From a virus, in the IMG/VR virus record IMGVR_UViG_3300021081_000087, positions 1 through 24,140 of that record: a stretch of DNA of 24,140 nt; one strand, given 5' to 3'. Below, piece after piece: positions 2,452 to 21,950 of the stretch. A program made the translations under genes and the position numbers. The notes beneath the pieces are model-generated. The model had not been told where the DNA came from. It ran no database searches and was given only the letters and a program-made list of their open reading frames with translations. Position 1 is the first letter of the stretch; the number at the start of each line of letters is the position of its first letter.

Positions 2452-3531
2452 CTACTTCTTGACCTTCTTTTTCTTTTTCGGCTCTTCAGGCACTTCGACA
2501 TCCACGATGTCGTCGAACGAGATGCGACGTTTCTTCTCGTCGCTCTCCACCCGGACTTCGTTGTCCTTCGGGAAGATGTCGAGCACGGTACCCTTCACCT
2601 TTTTGCCCTTGTACTTGTAGACGATCTCCGAGCCGACGGTGACTTCGACATTCTCACCGTCGCTGTCCTCCTCGTCTTCATCCTCGTCTTCGTCTTCATC
2701 GTCATCCGACTTATTGGACTTTTTCTTCTTGGACTTCTTCTTGTCGTCCTCGTCGTCTTCGTCCTCGTCATCGGAATCGTCTTCGTCCTCGTCCTCCTCT
2801 TCTTCGTCATCATCGTCGTCGTCGGACTTGGACTTCTTTTTCTTGACGACCTTCTTTTTCTTCTTGTCGTCGTCATCCTCATCATCATCGTCCTCGGATT
2901 CGTCATCGTCATCCGAGTCATCTTCGTCATCGTCGTCCTTCTTGGACTTCGATTTCTTTTTCTTTTTGGTGTCGGTGTCGTCGTCCTCATCACCGTCTTC
3001 GTCATCCACGTCCTCGTCCTCGTCCTGACCTTCCACCGCGAGGATTCGTACATTCTGGAACTCACCCTTGGTCTTGAGGGAGATCTTCGCTTTCGGTTTC
3101 TCCTTGTTCAAGTCCTTGATAATGTCTTTGAGATCTGCGGCCGACTCAACTTCATCCGTCTCGTAGCCAAGCCGGTTGAGATCGCGGCCGAAGTAGGTCA
3201 GGTTGTCCTCGGTCTCGATACCCTGGTAGGCGATCTTCTCCTTACCTTTGTATTCACCAGATAGAAACTTCCAGTGCATCGCCACCTGCAACCGGTCGTT
3301 CGACGATACACCGATCTCGGTCTTGACGAGCCGTCCCTTATATCGGCCGTCATCGAACTCTTCGAACCCACCAGCCTTCATCTCGTCTTTGACATCGCCC
3401 CACTTCTTGAACGCTCGTGCCAGACGTTTGTCGAGATCGACTTTCCCGCTTTGCTTCTTCGCCACTGTGGACTCCTCTAGATATCCGATGTTGTCTTCGT
3501 CCCGGAGCTTCGACAGAATGCCGTAGCTCAT
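2452..3531 (-). CDS. Phage ssDNA-binding protein (DUF669-like) with acidic/lysine tracts and C-terminal Tudor-like domain
   Basis: A 359-residue protein in three parts. Residues about 55-165 resemble the DUF669 phage ssDNA-binding fold (F-D-D-G-R-Y-K-G-R-L-V then F-L-S-G-E-Y-K-G-K). Residues about 165-305 are tracts of Asp/Glu interrupted by Lys-rich blocks. The last 50 residues form a small beta domain (Y-K-Y-K-G-K-K-V-K-G-T-V-L-D-I-F-P) like a Tudor/KOW barrel, ending in a lysine-rich tail. It should coat ssDNA and load the adjacent Sak4-like ATPase. ATG at 3529-3531 overlaps the ATPase stop (ATGA). An in-frame GTG at 3463-3465 has a stronger AGAGGAG site and could give a 337-residue form, although the codons before it look coding. 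Confidence 0.8.
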   Translation of the reverse strand: MSYGILSKLRDEDNIGYLEESTVAKKQSGKVDLDKRLARAFKKWGDVKDEMKAGGFEEFDDGRYKGRLVKTEIGVSSNDRLQVAMHWKFLSGEYKGKEKIAYQGIETEDNLTYFGRDLNRLGYETDEVESAADLKDIIKDLNKEKPKAKISLKTKGEFQNVRILAVEGQDEDEDVDDEDGDEDDDTDTKKKKKSKSKKDDDDEDDSDDDDESEDDDDEDDDDKKKKKVVKKKKSKSDDDDDDEEEEDEDEDDSDDEDEDDEDDKKKSKKKKSNKSDDDEDEDEDEDEEDSDGENVEVTVGSEIVYKYKGKKVKGTVLDIFPKDNEVRVESDEKKRRISFDDIVDVEVPEEPKKKKKVKK

Positions 3532-6963: not shown

Positions 6964-7793
6964 AGTGACCCTCTCCATCCGGTAATATGTTTCCAGGTTT
7001 CATGGGCGAGCTCATCTGGTCGCCATGTGGCGAACCGGCCGAAGCAGTGTACGTCAAAGAGTTTCAGTGCCCGGAGCACGTCTTCACTCTCTGGATGTGG
7101 GTGAATCTTCCCCGGTAGAATCTTTGTGTGCGAAACGCCTACTACGCAATCCACGTCCAGTGTTTCATAAAATACCTGATCGTCGGATTTGGTTTCCCGG
7201 TAGAAGGGTTGGTCCGGATTGGATAAATAGTTCAGCACCATACCGTCCACCCCGGCCGATTGCTTTTCGCGGACCATGAAGATGGGATTGTTCTTCCAGG
7301 GATGGTGAACCAGTGGAGGGATGAGACAGAGTTTCAAAAAGAAATCTAGTGGGATGGTGTTGATGAGCACGTCATAGTCAATGAACACATCATCTGCTAA
7401 CAATAGCTGGTGAGCCGACAGGTCCACCCCTTTGACCAAACGACCGTACTCAACTTTCGGTACCGGCAGTTTGCTGTGCCATCCCGTGGAGTGATGTTGG
7501 AACTGCAATCCCCAGTCTCCGCCATCGTCTTCTTTGCCGATCTTTTTCTTGTAAGTCAGGATCGAATCCGGTGTCGGCGGTTGGTTATCCACCAACGTCG
7601 TCACTGGGAATGAAAACGACTCCACGAGTGGAATTGGTTCCCAGAGATACTGTGGACCCATCCTGGTGTCCATGTGATTGGCCGGTGGAGTCTTCCGCCA
7701 GTCCAACAAGCGAGCCGACGGCATCGCCAATTGAATTAGCTGTCCCACATATCCACCGCCGATGACGACCACGTGAGCGAAACTCAATCTCAT
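6960..7793 (-). CDS. FAD/NAD(P)-binding oxidoreductase-like protein (UDP-galactopyranose mutase-like)
   Basis: Encodes 277 residues. V-V-V-I-G-G-G-Y-V-G at residues 8-17 is a GxGxxG-type Rossmann dinucleotide loop. The C-terminal C-F-G-R-F-A-T-W-R-P-D-E-L-A-H-E-T resembles the closing G-R-Y-x-x-W motif of UDP-galactopyranose mutase and related amine-oxidase-fold flavoproteins. It is shorter than bacterial mutases (about 370 residues), so part of the substrate domain is missing or reduced. A sugar or nucleotide redox step is possible; the substrate is not evident. ATG at 7791-7793 follows GGAGG and overlaps the nuclease stop (ATGA). It sits between DNA-repair and nucleotide genes. Confidence 0.65.
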   Translation of the reverse strand: MRLSFAHVVVIGGGYVGQLIQLAMPSARLLDWRKTPPANHMDTRMGPQYLWEPIPLVESFSFPVTTLVDNQPPTPDSILTYKKKIGKEDDGGDWGLQFQHHSTGWHSKLPVPKVEYGRLVKGVDLSAHQLLLADDVFIDYDVLINTIPLDFFLKLCLIPPLVHHPWKNNPIFMVREKQSAGVDGMVLNYLSNPDQPFYRETKSDDQVFYETLDVDCVVGVSHTKILPGKIHPHPESEDVLRALKLFDVHCFGRFATWRPDELAHETWKHITGWRGSL

Positions 7794-13299: not shown

Positions 13300-13374
13300 T
13301 GGCTGGCGAGGGTGGATTCGAACCACCGACCTTCCGGTTAACAGCCGGACGTTCTGCCACTGAACTACTCGCCA
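13300..13374 (-). tRNA. tRNA-Asn (anticodon GUU)
   Basis: A full cloverleaf is present on the minus strand. The 7-bp acceptor TGGCGAG pairs with CTCGCCA, the D-stem is GTTC/GAAC, the anticodon stem is TCCGG/CCGGA with loop CTGTTAA giving anticodon GTT, the variable loop has 5 bases and the T-stem is GGTGG/CCACC with loop TTCGAAT. The discriminator base is G and CCA is encoded at 13302-13300. All stems pair fully, so it should be functional. It would supply Asn decoding for phage genes late in infection. A spurious frame across it is not a gene. Confidence 0.97.
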
Positions 13375-13481: not shown

Positions 13482-14201
13482 TTACTTCTTGCGTTTCAGT
13501 TTGAGGGTGATCTTCTTGCCACCGGTCTTCTCCGGCTTCTCAGGCGAGACCTTCTTGACCGAGCCCATGCTCTTCAAACGGTTGAGCATGACACCGGTCT
13601 GGACTAACGGGTCCTGACCAGTGACATCCTTGAGCCCACCCTTGATTGCGGCTTCGGTGATCTCGGCGACGGTCCCGGACTTGACCTTCTGAACCGCCTT
13701 GTGCACGATGCCCATGATGGTGCCGTCTTCGACGTTCTTGGCGACCTTCACGAACTCAAACACCTTGCGACCACGACGATCATCTGACGACGCTGACTTC
13801 TTCACCGACTTTTTCTTCGCCATGTCATCTAACTCCTCTTGTTGTTGAGCGCGTTGTTGTTGACGTTTCCGAATGTTCGCTTTCGAGACTGCGTCGATCT
13901 CCATCCGCTCGGTCCAGAGCATGAAACACATTGGGCAATAGACCAGCTTGCGAAGCTTGGGCGGATGTTTGGGAACCAACTCGATGTGCCCACATTGCAG
14001 CACCAGTAGCAGTGAATTGTTTAGCGGCACTCCCTGCCGATACCATCCATCGGTGGCCCACTCCGTATTGACCGAGCCCATGCGCACCGGGCGAATGGGA
14101 CGCATGTACAGCTCGCGATCTGGTGTTGATTTCCTCCTTTTGTGAAAGGTCAGAGACAGGCGGATTGGTCGCTGCGCCGTACGACGCAATCGAATTTTCA
14201 T
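13482..14201 (-). CDS. Zinc-finger plus winged-helix-like (HARE-HTH-like) protein, paralogue A
   Basis: Encodes 239 residues. The N-terminal part has Q-C-G-H-I-E-L-V and Y-C-P-M-C, a CxH...CxxC zinc site. The C-terminal part, about residues 127-220, carries G-T-V-A-E-I-T-E-A-A-I-K-G-G-L then V-T-G-Q-D-P-L-V-Q-T, repeated in the genes at 17255 and 21088. It resembles the HARE-HTH winged helix, suggesting DNA binding. A lysine-rich tail ends the protein. M-A-K-K-K at 13821-13823 is preceded by AGAGGAG with 9-base spacing, so a shorter second product starting there is likely. The ATG at 14199-14201 has no good binding site, so the first start is uncertain. Confidence 0.7.
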   Translation of the reverse strand: MKIRLRRTAQRPIRLSLTFHKRRKSTPDRELYMRPIRPVRMGSVNTEWATDGWYRQGVPLNNSLLLVLQCGHIELVPKHPPKLRKLVYCPMCFMLWTERMEIDAVSKANIRKRQQQRAQQQEELDDMAKKKSVKKSASSDDRRGRKVFEFVKVAKNVEDGTIMGIVHKAVQKVKSGTVAEITEAAIKGGLKDVTGQDPLVQTGVMLNRLKSMGSVKKVSPEKPEKTGGKKITLKLKRKK

Positions 14202-15978: not shown

Positions 15979-17258
15979 AAGATGCACTCTCTTGGTTTCT
16001 TGTCATCTCGCTTTCTGAGAAAGGACGGAAATCGTAATCCTGTTTCGGACATCTTCTCGTACTTCACTTCCACCACACATGGATACGTCCATTTGAGCGC
16101 AGCCTTCCGTGTGACGTCATCGAAGCCGGTTCCCACATTACCAAGCGACACTAGGTGAACCGAATTCCGAATTCCGGTCTTGTCATATGCAGATAGATTC
16201 AAGGCACCAACCACCTTGCTGTTCCGGCCTTTACCGTATTCAAAGTCGGTCGCGACGAAGTCTCCCTCACGCATCGGTTTGAACTTGTAACAGTTGCACC
16301 GCTTCGGACTACCGTTCAGGTGCACCTGCGTGGCTTGGTCCTTCCTCCAGAGCACCAAGCCTTCCCATCCCTTGCTGTGGACCTTCTTGATATTGTGTGC
16401 CAACGACTTCGACGACTGCCACATCGGGATCACGTGACAGAACTGTGTCCAACCCTTACGTCCTTCGTGTGCCTTCTCCAAAGCAATGACCAAGGCGTTG
16501 CGTCGTTGTTCGAAGGGGAGCTGCCACGTAGGGAGCCGGTCATAGAATAACAAATCGAAAACCATGAACCGAATGTCACGTCGATTCAATTCATGCGTCA
16601 CCATCGTGCGCTTGGCTCGGTCCGGCTTCGACCGCACGATTTCCGACACGGCCTTGAAGTCGTCCACCCCTTTGTACGTGGACACCACAAACTCCGCGTC
16701 CAAGATGGTACCCGGTGGCAAGGTGAGCTCCTGGGTGAACCGTTCGAAGTAGGCGGTCAGATCGTCCATCCCCCTGGAGTAGACCCGAATGCGCCCATTC
16801 TTACCAGCCACAATGTAGTGCCGCATGCCGTCCCGTTTCCGCTGGATAGCCAGCTTACCTTCCCGGTCCAACCGATCCGCCTCTGCTGGCGAGATTTCCC
16901 GGATGGGTTTAGCCGGTGCGAAGGAACGGGGCAGATGATCAAAATCCAAACCCGACTTCAGCTTCTCCAGTTGCACGGCCTGTGTTCGTGTCTCGGCTTC
17001 CACATAGCCTGCCCGCACTTTCTTCTTCACCTGACGGACATGCTCCTCCAGCGCAACAACCTTCGGCGATTTGTATGCCAATGTTCCTTTTTTCCCCCGT
17101 GAGGTCATGGTGTCACGGGTCATCTGCATCTTGCCACCCTTAATGCCCCATGAACTCGTAACCGTAATGTCGTCTTCTTCAATCCAGCATGACCAGGTCT
17201 TGACCTGGCCTGAGGTTGTGCGAGAGAAAAATGACACATGATGCGTAGATAGTTTCAT
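15975..17258 (-). CDS. ATP-dependent DNA ligase with WGR-like N-terminal domain
   Basis: Encodes 427 residues. The first 80 residues include W-S-C-W-I-E-E-D-D-I-T-V and S-S-W-G-I-K-G-G-K-M-Q, the WGR domain pattern. The nucleotidyltransferase core has motif I K-R-D-G-M-R (Lys 141 carries the AMP), motif III D-A-E-F (187-190), motif IIIa M-V-F-D-L-L-F-Y, motif IV E-G-L-V-L-W and motif V Y-K-F-K-P. A C-terminal OB-fold region with a Tyr/Lys-rich motif follows. It seals 5'-phosphate/3'-OH nicks during phage replication and recombination. ATG at 17256-17258 follows GGAGG and overlaps the paralogue B stop (ATGA). Confidence 0.92.
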   Translation of the reverse strand: MKLSTHHVSFFSRTTSGQVKTWSCWIEEDDITVTSSWGIKGGKMQMTRDTMTSRGKKGTLAYKSPKVVALEEHVRQVKKKVRAGYVEAETRTQAVQLEKLKSGLDFDHLPRSFAPAKPIREISPAEADRLDREGKLAIQRKRDGMRHYIVAGKNGRIRVYSRGMDDLTAYFERFTQELTLPPGTILDAEFVVSTYKGVDDFKAVSEIVRSKPDRAKRTMVTHELNRRDIRFMVFDLLFYDRLPTWQLPFEQRRNALVIALEKAHEGRKGWTQFCHVIPMWQSSKSLAHNIKKVHSKGWEGLVLWRKDQATQVHLNGSPKRCNCYKFKPMREGDFVATDFEYGKGRNSKVVGALNLSAYDKTGIRNSVHLVSLGNVGTGFDDVTRKAALKWTYPCVVEVKYEKMSETGLRFPSFLRKRDDKKPRECIL

Positions 17259-17818
17259 ATGACCTCCACCACACCGGATTGCAACATTCGATGCAGCATT
17301 ATCGAAGTTTGCGTCGTTGGGTCTTGACCGGTGACCTTGGCCAAACCCCCGGACAAGGCCTCAGTCGTGATATCGGCGACCGTGCCCTCCTTGAGTTCCT
17401 TGATTGCTGAATGCACGATAGACATGATCCCAACCGGGATCTTTTCCGGTGCCTTCACATACCGGAATATCTTCTTCCCAGATTTCGTGCCCACCCTCAC
17501 TGCACGTGGAAAAGCAGACTTGGTTCGTGTCCGCTTCAGCATCTCTTTCTTTATTGCTTCCCACATCTTTCTCTTCGCGTGCTTCGTCATGTCGGTTCGG
17601 TGACAGGGACAGAGACAGTATCGGTGAATGTGTCCCTGGTCTGACGTCTTTGGACAGTGCCGATGACGAGAGTTTGTGCACGCCTGAAACAACTGACCTT
17701 TGTACGACTCGAAATAGAATCGTGTATAGGGCGGACACCCACGTGGCGTAGGGGGCAGCAGCATCTGCGCCAGCCGTGCGTGCTCCCGTATTTTTCTCCG
17801 GACCTTCGCTCGGGACAT
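17255..17818 (-). CDS. Cys/His-rich plus winged-helix-like protein, paralogue B
   Basis: Encodes 187 residues. The N-terminal half is basic and holds many Cys and His (G-C-P-P-Y, A-C-T-N-S-R-H-R-H-C, Y-C-L-C-P-C-H), likely binding two zinc ions. The C-terminal 80 residues repeat paralogue A: G-T-V-A-D-I-T-T-E-A-L-S-G-G-L then V-T-G-Q-D-P-T-T-Q-T, a HARE-HTH-like winged helix. Unlike A it has no lysine tail. ATG at 17816-17818 has AAGGAGG close upstream. It is translationally coupled to the ligase, which may point to a DNA-targeting or regulatory role for that enzyme. Confidence 0.75.
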   Translation of the reverse strand: MSRAKVRRKIREHARLAQMLLPPTPRGCPPYTRFYFESYKGQLFQACTNSRHRHCPKTSDQGHIHRYCLCPCHRTDMTKHAKRKMWEAIKKEMLKRTRTKSAFPRAVRVGTKSGKKIFRYVKAPEKIPVGIMSIVHSAIKELKEGTVADITTEALSGGLAKVTGQDPTTQTSIMLHRMLQSGVVEVI

Positions 17819-21087: not shown

Positions 21088-21345
21088 TTACGCGGCCACC
21101 TTGATGCGCTTCACGGCCTTGAGCACACGCAGCCGATTCAGATGCACATGCGTCTGCACTAGTGGATTCTGGCTGGTGACCTTCTTAAGTCCCAGCTTGA
21201 CGGCTGCGGCCGCGATGTCGGCCACCGAACCCTTGCGCACTTTCTTGACCGCGTCAAGCACGACAGCCTGAATGCCGGCCTGCGCCTCGACGGTCTTGAT
21301 GAATGCGAACTGCGCACGACCACGGTTGCTCTTGACATTCTTCAT
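21088..21345 (-). CDS. Winged-helix-like (HARE-HTH-like) protein, paralogue C
   Basis: Encodes 85 residues, the domain alone. A basic start (M-K-N-V-K-S-N-R-G-R) leads to V-L-D-A-V-K-K-V-R-K-G-S-V-A-D-I-A-A-A-A-V-K-L-G-L then V-T-S-Q-N-P-L-V-Q-T-H-V-H-L-N-R-L, matching the C-terminal parts of the proteins at 13482 and 17255. It probably binds DNA. ATG at 21343-21345 has AAGGAG 9 bases before it. RNA element E1 (21373-21448) lies in its leader, so its translation or transcription may be controlled by that structure. A terminator follows. Confidence 0.8.
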   Translation of the reverse strand: MKNVKSNRGRAQFAFIKTVEAQAGIQAVVLDAVKKVRKGSVADIAAAAVKLGLKKVTSQNPLVQTHVHLNRLRVLKAVKRIKVAA

Positions 21346-21372: not shown

Positions 21373-21448
21373 CCGGCCTTGGAACCGGACGCCAGCGGAA
21401 TTGCTGCCGTGGGATTTACAAACGCAGGGGGATGCGTTTGTCCTCATC
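21373..21448 (-). ncRNA. Structured leader RNA element, copy E1
   Basis: Read on the minus strand: GATGAGG, a 9-bp stem (ACAAACGCA/TGCGTTTGT, loop of 6), AAATCCC, an 8-base stem with one mismatch (ACGGCAGC/GCTGGCGT), then CCGG-TTCCAAGG-CCGG. The unpaired blocks are identical in E2 at 21873, while the stems differ and still pair. It starts on the stop codon of the gene at 21447 and ends 27 bases before the start of paralogue C. This is what a cis-regulatory RNA would look like; I match it to no family. Confidence 0.6.
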
Positions 21449-21710
21449 ACAGGTTGATTGCAAATGTTTCCGTCCAGTCTTCTACGTTGCCACCCTTTTC
21501 TTTTACCTCTCTTACAAGAGATACGATTTCAATAATACACTCCTCTAGTGTCGAGTGCCCATCGTTGATTTCGTTCTCGATGCCGGCCAGTTCGAAGCAC
21601 TGCGGACAGATCTTATTACCGGCCGATTGCACACCGGTGTCTCTCGTGCCGCGTCCGCAGACATTACACTTGAACACCGCAGAGCCTCGATAGAACTTTT
21701 TAATTGTCAC
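21447..21710 (-). CDS. Small zinc-ribbon protein
   Basis: Encodes 87 residues. K-C-N-V-C-G-R-G-T-R-D-T-G-V-Q-S-A-G-N-K then I-C-P-Q-C-F gives a CxxC...CxxC zinc ribbon. The second half, S-T-L-E-E-C-I-I-E-I-V-S-L-V-R-E-V-K-E-K, is a helix. I recall this arrangement from phage hypothetical proteins; function unknown. The start is GTG at 21708-21710, with AGGAGG 5 bases upstream; the overlapping ATG is out of frame. Its stop begins the E1 RNA element. Confidence 0.75.
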   Translation of the reverse strand: MTIKKFYRGSAVFKCNVCGRGTRDTGVQSAGNKICPQCFELAGIENEINDGHSTLEECIIEIVSLVREVKEKGGNVEDWTETFAINL

Positions 21711-21722
21711 ATTGACCTCCTG

Positions 21723-21866
21723 TTACGATTTCCGAATGGCTTCGAGTTTTTTTAAGGCTTCCTGATGCAACCCAGCGCGACGGAGCCGCATGATTTCGGC
21801 ATAGCGTTCATTTAACTGCCGAGCGATGAGACGAACCTGTGTGGCTTCCCACTTTTGATTGCGCAT
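21723..21866 (-). CDS. Small basic helical protein under element E2
   Basis: Encodes 47 residues starting M-R-N-Q-K-W-E-A-T-Q and continuing as helix: L-N-E-R-Y-A-E-I-M-R-L-R-R-A-G-L-H-Q-E-A-L-K-K-L. No family recognised. ATG at 21864-21866 lies 6 bases after RNA element E2, whose AAGG loop is the only nearby Shine-Dalgarno-like sequence, 10 bases before the ATG. The frame stays open upstream through E2 to GTG 21986 and beyond, so a longer protein is the alternative. Confidence 0.55.
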   Translation of the reverse strand: MRNQKWEATQVRLIARQLNERYAEIMRLRRAGLHQEALKKLEAIRKS

Positions 21867-21872
21867 TGTTGT

Positions 21873-21950
21873 TTGGCCTTGGAACCAACCATGGCGGTAT
21901 GCCATGGGGGATTTACAACGCAGTGCTGTCACCGCTGCGCTGTCCTCATC
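21873..21950 (-). ncRNA. Structured leader RNA element, copy E2
   Basis: Read on the minus strand: GATGAGG, a 9-bp stem (ACAGCGCAG/CTGCGTTGT, loop of 11), AAATCCC, a 7-bp stem (CCATGGC/GCCATGG), then TTGG-TTCCAAGG-CCAA. Blocks GATGAGG, AAATCCC and TTCCAAGG equal those of E1, while most paired positions differ and remain paired, including CCGG/CCGG changed to TTGG/CCAA. It ends 6 bases before the gene at 21723-21866, and its last loop could act as or hide the ribosome binding site. Confidence 0.6.

Follow-up and report, generated by a model that had tools for sequence, protein, structure and literature searches.

The window analysed here, the whole 24,140-nucleotide stretch of the viral record IMGVR_UViG_3300021081_000087 (positions 1 to 24,140), contains two copies of a structured RNA element, E1 (21448..21373) and E2 (21950..21873), both on the minus strand. 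The initial annotation had placed two such copies at these sites, and the coordinates check out. The neighbouring genes are likewise encoded on the minus strand, and each copy sits between the stop codon of one open reading frame (ORF) and the start of the next. The features of the locus are listed below in their order along the minus strand. RF02684 is the Rfam family of the type-P5 twister ribozyme; P and L denote stems and loops, and T1 and T2 are the two pseudoknots of the twister fold.

21873..21950, minus strand: E2, candidate type-P5 twister, full element (RF02684 27.5 bits, model 1-58, E 2.1e-4)
21948..21950, minus strand: E2 P2, 5' strand GAU, pairing with AUC at 21910-21912 (alignment, covariation, folding)
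21943..21947, minus strand: E2 loop L1, GAGGA, with the T1 half GGA at 21943-21945 (alignment, covariation)
21916..21942, minus strand: E2 P1 hairpin (folding)
21914..21915, minus strand: predicted E2 cleavage step U21915/A21914 (from the position of UAA in the RF02684 alignment)
21889..21907, minus strand: E2 P3 hairpin, 7 bp
21873..21888, minus strand: E2 P4 hairpin, UUGG-UUCCAAGG-CCAA
21723..21866, minus strand: ORF of 47 amino acids directly downstream of E2, after a gap of 6 nt
21447..21710, minus strand: ORF of 87 amino acids between E2 and E1, zinc-ribbon-like, phrog_3633; the first two bases of E1 are also part of its TGA stop
21373..21448, minus strand: E1, candidate type-P5 twister, full element (RF02684 33.4 bits, model 1-58, E 4.5e-5)
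21446..21448, minus strand: E1 P2, 5' strand GAU, pairing with AUC at 21413-21415 (alignment, covariation, folding)
21441..21445, minus strand: E1 loop L1, GAGGA, in which GGA at 21441-21443 is half of T1 (alignment, covariation)
21419..21440, minus strand: E1 P1 hairpin, 8 bp with a 6-nt loop (folding)
21417..21418, minus strand: predicted E1 cleavage step U21418/A21417 within UAA (from the position of UAA in the RF02684 alignment)
21411..21412, minus strand: E1 L2, CC, half of T2 (covariation)
21389..21410, minus strand: E1 P3 hairpin
21373..21388, minus strand: E1 P4 hairpin, CCGG-UUCCAAGG-CCGG, with UCC (T1, 21381-21383) and GG (T2, 21377-21378) in L4 (alignment, covariation)
21088..21345, minus strand: ORF of 85 amino acids downstream of E1, after a gap of 27 nt, with AAGGAG upstream

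From 5' to 3', E1 consists of GAU, GAGGA, the P1 hairpin, UAA, AUC, CC, the P3 hairpin and the P4 hairpin, and E2 has the same order with other letters in its stems. Taken as a spaced pattern, GATGAGG...AAATCCC has exactly two occurrences in the window, whereas 100 dinucleotide-preserving shuffles gave none. The folding of each element beats 200 of 200 shuffled sequences (z -2.94 and -2.99); its minimum-energy structure includes P1 and the GAU/AUC stem along with the second and the last hairpin. The compensatory stem changes that the initial annotation saw between the two copies are confirmed. The blocks GATGAGG and AAATCCC, which it took as conserved, are indeed present in both copies, but they are not spacers: GAU, the start of the first block, pairs with AUC inside the second, and the blocks are thus partly stem.

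Could a protein reading frame account for the conservation instead? The TGTAAATCCC..TTCCAAGG spacing is in frame in E1 and E2, where the frame is open by chance, but it is out of frame in the related copies L003, L005 and L008, where the frame is broken. In several relatives the distance between the conserved blocks is not divisible by three, which excludes a shared protein frame as the cause; the initial annotation had argued that such a frame could not account for all of the conservation. Loss of pairing in homologues, which it had named as evidence against a structured RNA, was not seen either; all E-like relatives keep the stems with other letters.

Does the element belong to a known RNA family? 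At its default cut-off Rfam reports nothing at the positions of E1 and E2, and the element had been assigned to no riboswitch or ribozyme family. Once the cut-off is relaxed, however, both copies align end to end with RF02684, at 33.4 bits for E1 and 27.5 bits for E2, below the gathering cut-off of 37.6 bits; together with the two twister pseudoknots, both confirmed by covariation, this full-length sub-threshold match contradicts the earlier statement. E1-like copies in other phages score 35.2 bits (L003) and 29.9 bits (L005), and the phage contig that carries L008 also bears an above-cut-off twister, L019 (44.5 bits). The Rfam cut-off misses diverged members such as E1 and E2. A further model, R1, gives E1 69.6 bits and E2 86.5 bits, both being members of its training set. 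Other Rfam families yielded only weak sub-threshold snoRNA or ribosomal-leader matches for the two elements. A hammerhead (CUGAUGA ... GAAA core) was considered and rejected: GAUGA is present but GAAA is not, and there is no Rfam hammerhead match down to E 10.

Twister ribozymes are characterised by a U-A cleavage step, the stems P1, P2 and P4, a T1 pseudoknot of three Watson-Crick pairs between L1 and L4, and a T2 pseudoknot between an L2 dinucleotide and two bases of L4; P1 is dispensable for cleavage (PMC5408937). E1 and E2 retain P1, P2, P4, the U/A step and both pseudoknots. The stems are arranged as in the P5 permutation, with P1 closed by a loop and the open end after P4, and P1, P2 and P4 all show two-sided changes. 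Like RF02684, the two elements have the order P2-L1-P1 hairpin-U/AA-P2'-L2-(P3)-P4/L4, GAG in L1, U...CAA in L4 and both pairings. They differ from it in a P3 hairpin inserted between L2 and P4, in T1 (GGA/UCC against GGG/CCC), in T2 (CC/GG against GC/GC) and in a P2 of 3 bp, where the published consensus has 4. Among 135 distinct above-cut-off sequences from the arrays described below, the P2 spacing is 3 nt in 66 and 4 nt in 64.

Seven further phage contigs in IMG/VR have copies resembling E1 and E2. Six of them, with eight copies, came from scanning IMG/VR contigs for the two conserved blocks, and scanning for the other half of the element gave these six and no others. A relaxed pattern gave one true new copy, L012; the other candidates from this pattern (L009-L011 and L013-L017) lack GAGGA and the P1 stem and were discarded on reading. 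A two-gap pattern gave one true new type, L028 plus three contigs with an identical element, and its remaining matches were likewise discarded. The sole match of a bacterial genome scan, L018, was false. No related locus was found through the protein downstream of E1, and no close relative among GenBank phages by E2 DNA or by one array protein. Within the window no further copy has a credible score (a match of 9.5 bits at 7027-7088, E 0.99, was ignored).

The covariation analysis drew on the E group, L019 and the eight-copy array of contig G008, and used 17 distinct cores, leaving out L012, whose P2 region misfits the fixed columns, and two duplicates. Pairing is found in 95.5% of cells, compared with 70% in shuffled alignments, and the covariation score of 0.658 (0.176 shuffled) was reached by 0 of 500 shuffles; sliding the partners by one base abolishes the signal. 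The position of UAA was picked with P1 in view, so the P1 counts lean towards structure, but T1, T2, P2 and P4 were unfitted. The U-A cleavage dinucleotide with a conserved A in L1, a trait of the family, is present: UAA is invariant in 17 of 17 sequences, with UAAA being part of the search patterns for E-type copies and UAA the anchor for cutting out the cores. T1 pairs in 100% of the 17 sequences; two of its pairs vary, through 5 and 7 two-sided changes, and it exists in five versions (GGA/UCC, GCC/GGC, GUG/CAC, GUC/GAC and GGC/GCC). If a shift by one base is tolerated, T2 has its partner in 20 of 20 copies, and in fixed register the pairing stands at 91%; the letters of T2 vary while the pairing is kept, from CC/GG in the E group to CG/CG in L019 and AC/GU in L072. 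Within the E group T1 and T2 are invariant, partly because the search patterns fixed their letters, and the variation comes from the wider family, whose arrays constitute a large natural set of covarying type-P5 sequences.

Taken together, E1 and E2 are very probably copies of the type-P5, circularly permuted twister ribozyme that lie at gene junctions of a phage operon and cleave there. Family membership rests on sequence, structure and covariation; cleavage, the chemistry of the ends and an effect on expression are predicted. The two copies are new, diverged members of a ribozyme class that, like its P5 permutation, was already known; the part of interest is the occurrence of many-copy arrays at the gene borders of phages.

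How regular is this placement? The upstream stop codon overlaps the 5' edge of the element in E1, E2, L004b, L006b and others, and mostly lies within a few bases elsewhere; downstream of E-type copies the next ORF mostly starts 0-40 nt past the element. A scan with the consensus form gave 53 stretches, many of them multi-copy, and RF02684 scores above its cut-off in 48 of 50 tested records, a maximum of 15 copies per record reaching E 1e-4 or better. In 19 phage array loci there are 139 above-cut-off copies, on one strand per locus and mostly 250-1500 nt apart, numbers that give no census or frequency, as the loci were chosen by ribozyme pattern. The choice took no account of gene context, which makes the context result fair: an ORF stop lies within -12 to +8 nt of the 5' edge in 84% of the 139 copies (15% of random positions), a start lies within 45 nt downstream in 91% (47%), and the two occur together in 75% (7.8%), although the short ORFs counted may include some that are not true genes. 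No family is known for the ORF upstream of E2. The phage contigs G027, G049, G025, G012 and G008 (L161, L159, L160, L164 and L178) each have 8-15 type-P5 twisters, which share a strand and mostly lie at gene borders. In the open PMC subset, outside which most subscription papers lie, no description was found of phage operons in which successive gene borders carry a type-P5 twister.

The description of the element as a structured RNA 5' of phage genes is upheld. Its designation as a cis-regulatory RNA gives way to a more specific one, that of a predicted self-cleaving element at the junction of two cistrons. An element in this position would, upon cleavage, affect the 3' end of the upstream gene as well as the 5' end of the downstream gene.

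Twister ribozymes are fast and chemically well studied. In the proposed mechanism, a polycistronic RNA would be made and each element would fold into P1-P2-P3-P4 with T1 (L1 GGA with L4 UCC) and T2 (L2 CC with L4 GG). The backbone would then cut itself at the U/A step, 21418/21417 in E1 and 21915/21914 in E2, separating the cistrons. Because of the P5 permutation, P1 would stay on the upstream mRNA as the hairpin at its 3' end, which would bear a 2',3'-cyclic phosphate. The first base of the downstream mRNA would be an A with a 5'-hydroxyl, and after it would come the P3 and P4 hairpins and the region for ribosome binding. The purpose might be to split the operon mRNA of the phage into units that have protected ends and a stability of their own; considered alone, this purpose has about an even chance of being correct. 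P1 is mostly 7-11 bp long in E-type copies; in the arrays its median length is 7 bp (a rough count), with a UUCG or GNRA loop in 43 of 135. Since P1 is dispensable for the chemistry and yet long here, it may serve the RNA end, which suggests a role as an mRNA-end hairpin. A broader proposal, with a little less than an even chance of being correct, is that many uncultivated phages carry long arrays of type-P5 twisters, one per gene junction, which would cut operon transcripts without protein into short hairpin-protected mRNAs, the window being a divergent two-copy member.

The window and two related phages (L004 and L006) agree in the sequence that precedes the first ribozyme and in the family of the gene that follows the second, but the DNA between the two ribozymes is unrelated (ORFs of 47 and 87 amino acids in the window, of 27 amino acids and other short ORFs in the others). 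The predicted excised piece in the window is 497 nt long. Unrelated DNA between ribozymes with both flanks conserved is located at 21418-21914 in the window, at about 588-745 in L042 and at about 19181-19465 in L043.

Alternative roles for the elements can be considered. Tandem ribozymes might mark or enable the exchange of small genes between conserved flanks, with cleavage letting new arrivals be expressed independently. The unrelated DNA between conserved flanks and the one to few genes per array interval are consistent with such cassettes. Nevertheless, the comparison covers no more than three phages, small genes of phages are replaced quickly even where there is no ribozyme, and a conserved catalytic core with pseudoknots would be unexplained unless cleavage also matters; cassette boundaries are thus an unlikely primary role. 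A control of translation, in which folding of the ribozyme would mask the ribosome-binding site of the following gene until cleavage and release of the 5' product expose it, is similarly improbable. It fits E2, L004a and L008, where the gap between element and ATG is 6 nt and the sole Shine-Dalgarno-like run is AAGG in L4, of which GG forms T2 (in E2 this putative ribosome-binding run precedes the ATG at 21866). In E1, L004b, L006b and most array copies, by contrast, the ribosome-binding site lies outside the ribozyme and the start codon is 20-40 nt downstream.

Two further roles are much less probable. The two predicted tandem cuts, on one strand in three related phages, could release the inter-ribozyme fragment as a stable RNA, possibly circularised by ligation of its 5'-hydroxyl and 2',3'-cyclic phosphate ends, and ribozyme-bearing circular RNAs are known elsewhere (PMC7761336). 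However, the excised part is coding and is not conserved between phages, and many phages have long arrays rather than pairs, which makes this very doubtful. It is scarcely credible that the element is a riboswitch or protein-bound leader that merely resembles a twister, as the inferred cis-regulatory RNA might have been. The location of E1 and E2 5' of genes would suit such a leader, but both twister pseudoknots and the catalytic-core letters are kept with compensatory changes, Rfam gives no riboswitch match, and, in contrast to riboswitch regulons, the gene that follows E1 is unrelated to the one that follows E2, neither having a known family.

Division of operon mRNA by self-cleavage, the preferred reading, can be compared with other small ribozymes. 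Bacterial twister and hammerhead ribozymes occur near Mu-like phage genes, with other ribozymes nearby, for a reason that was called unknown (PMC10085705). The present copies differ from these in lying exactly at cistron junctions and in forming arrays on one strand, with as many as about 15 copies in a record, and the border arrays offer a testable hypothesis for the association, namely the division of phage operon mRNA. HDV-like theta ribozymes of gut phages adjoin tRNA genes and have been proposed to process tRNA 3' trailers (PMC10879173). Like E1 and E2, for which cleavage is predicted, they are phage RNAs proposed for transcript processing, but they have another fold, and the substrate here would be mRNA and not tRNA trailers. 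The P4 loop letters of twister-sister are similar to those of twister (PMC6154101, PMC5408937); twister-sister, however, has no pseudoknot evidence and cleaves in the opposite loop strand, whereas T1 and T2 are here supported by covariation.

Some features of the elements recur beyond the catalytic core. The longer P1 stems of E2 (21916-21942), L003, L005 and L007 share an apical GUGACAG that short P1 loops do not have, possibly a tertiary contact or a protein site. Several P3 loops (E2 21889-21907, L004b, L006b, L007 and L008) share GCAUnCCGC while their stems vary.

The product of the gene downstream of E1 has two paralogues in the window, and the three (13482-14201, 17255-17818 and 21088-21345, all on the minus strand) have a common domain of about 75 amino acids, with 49% identity in the two pairs compared; none has a match in Pfam. 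The genes downstream of E1, L004b and L006b consist of this domain alone. Elsewhere in the window there are a tRNA-Asn (GTT) gene at 13300-13374 on the minus strand and, at 2452-3531 on the same strand, a gene for a 359-amino-acid protein with very long low-complexity runs rich in Asp/Glu and Lys.
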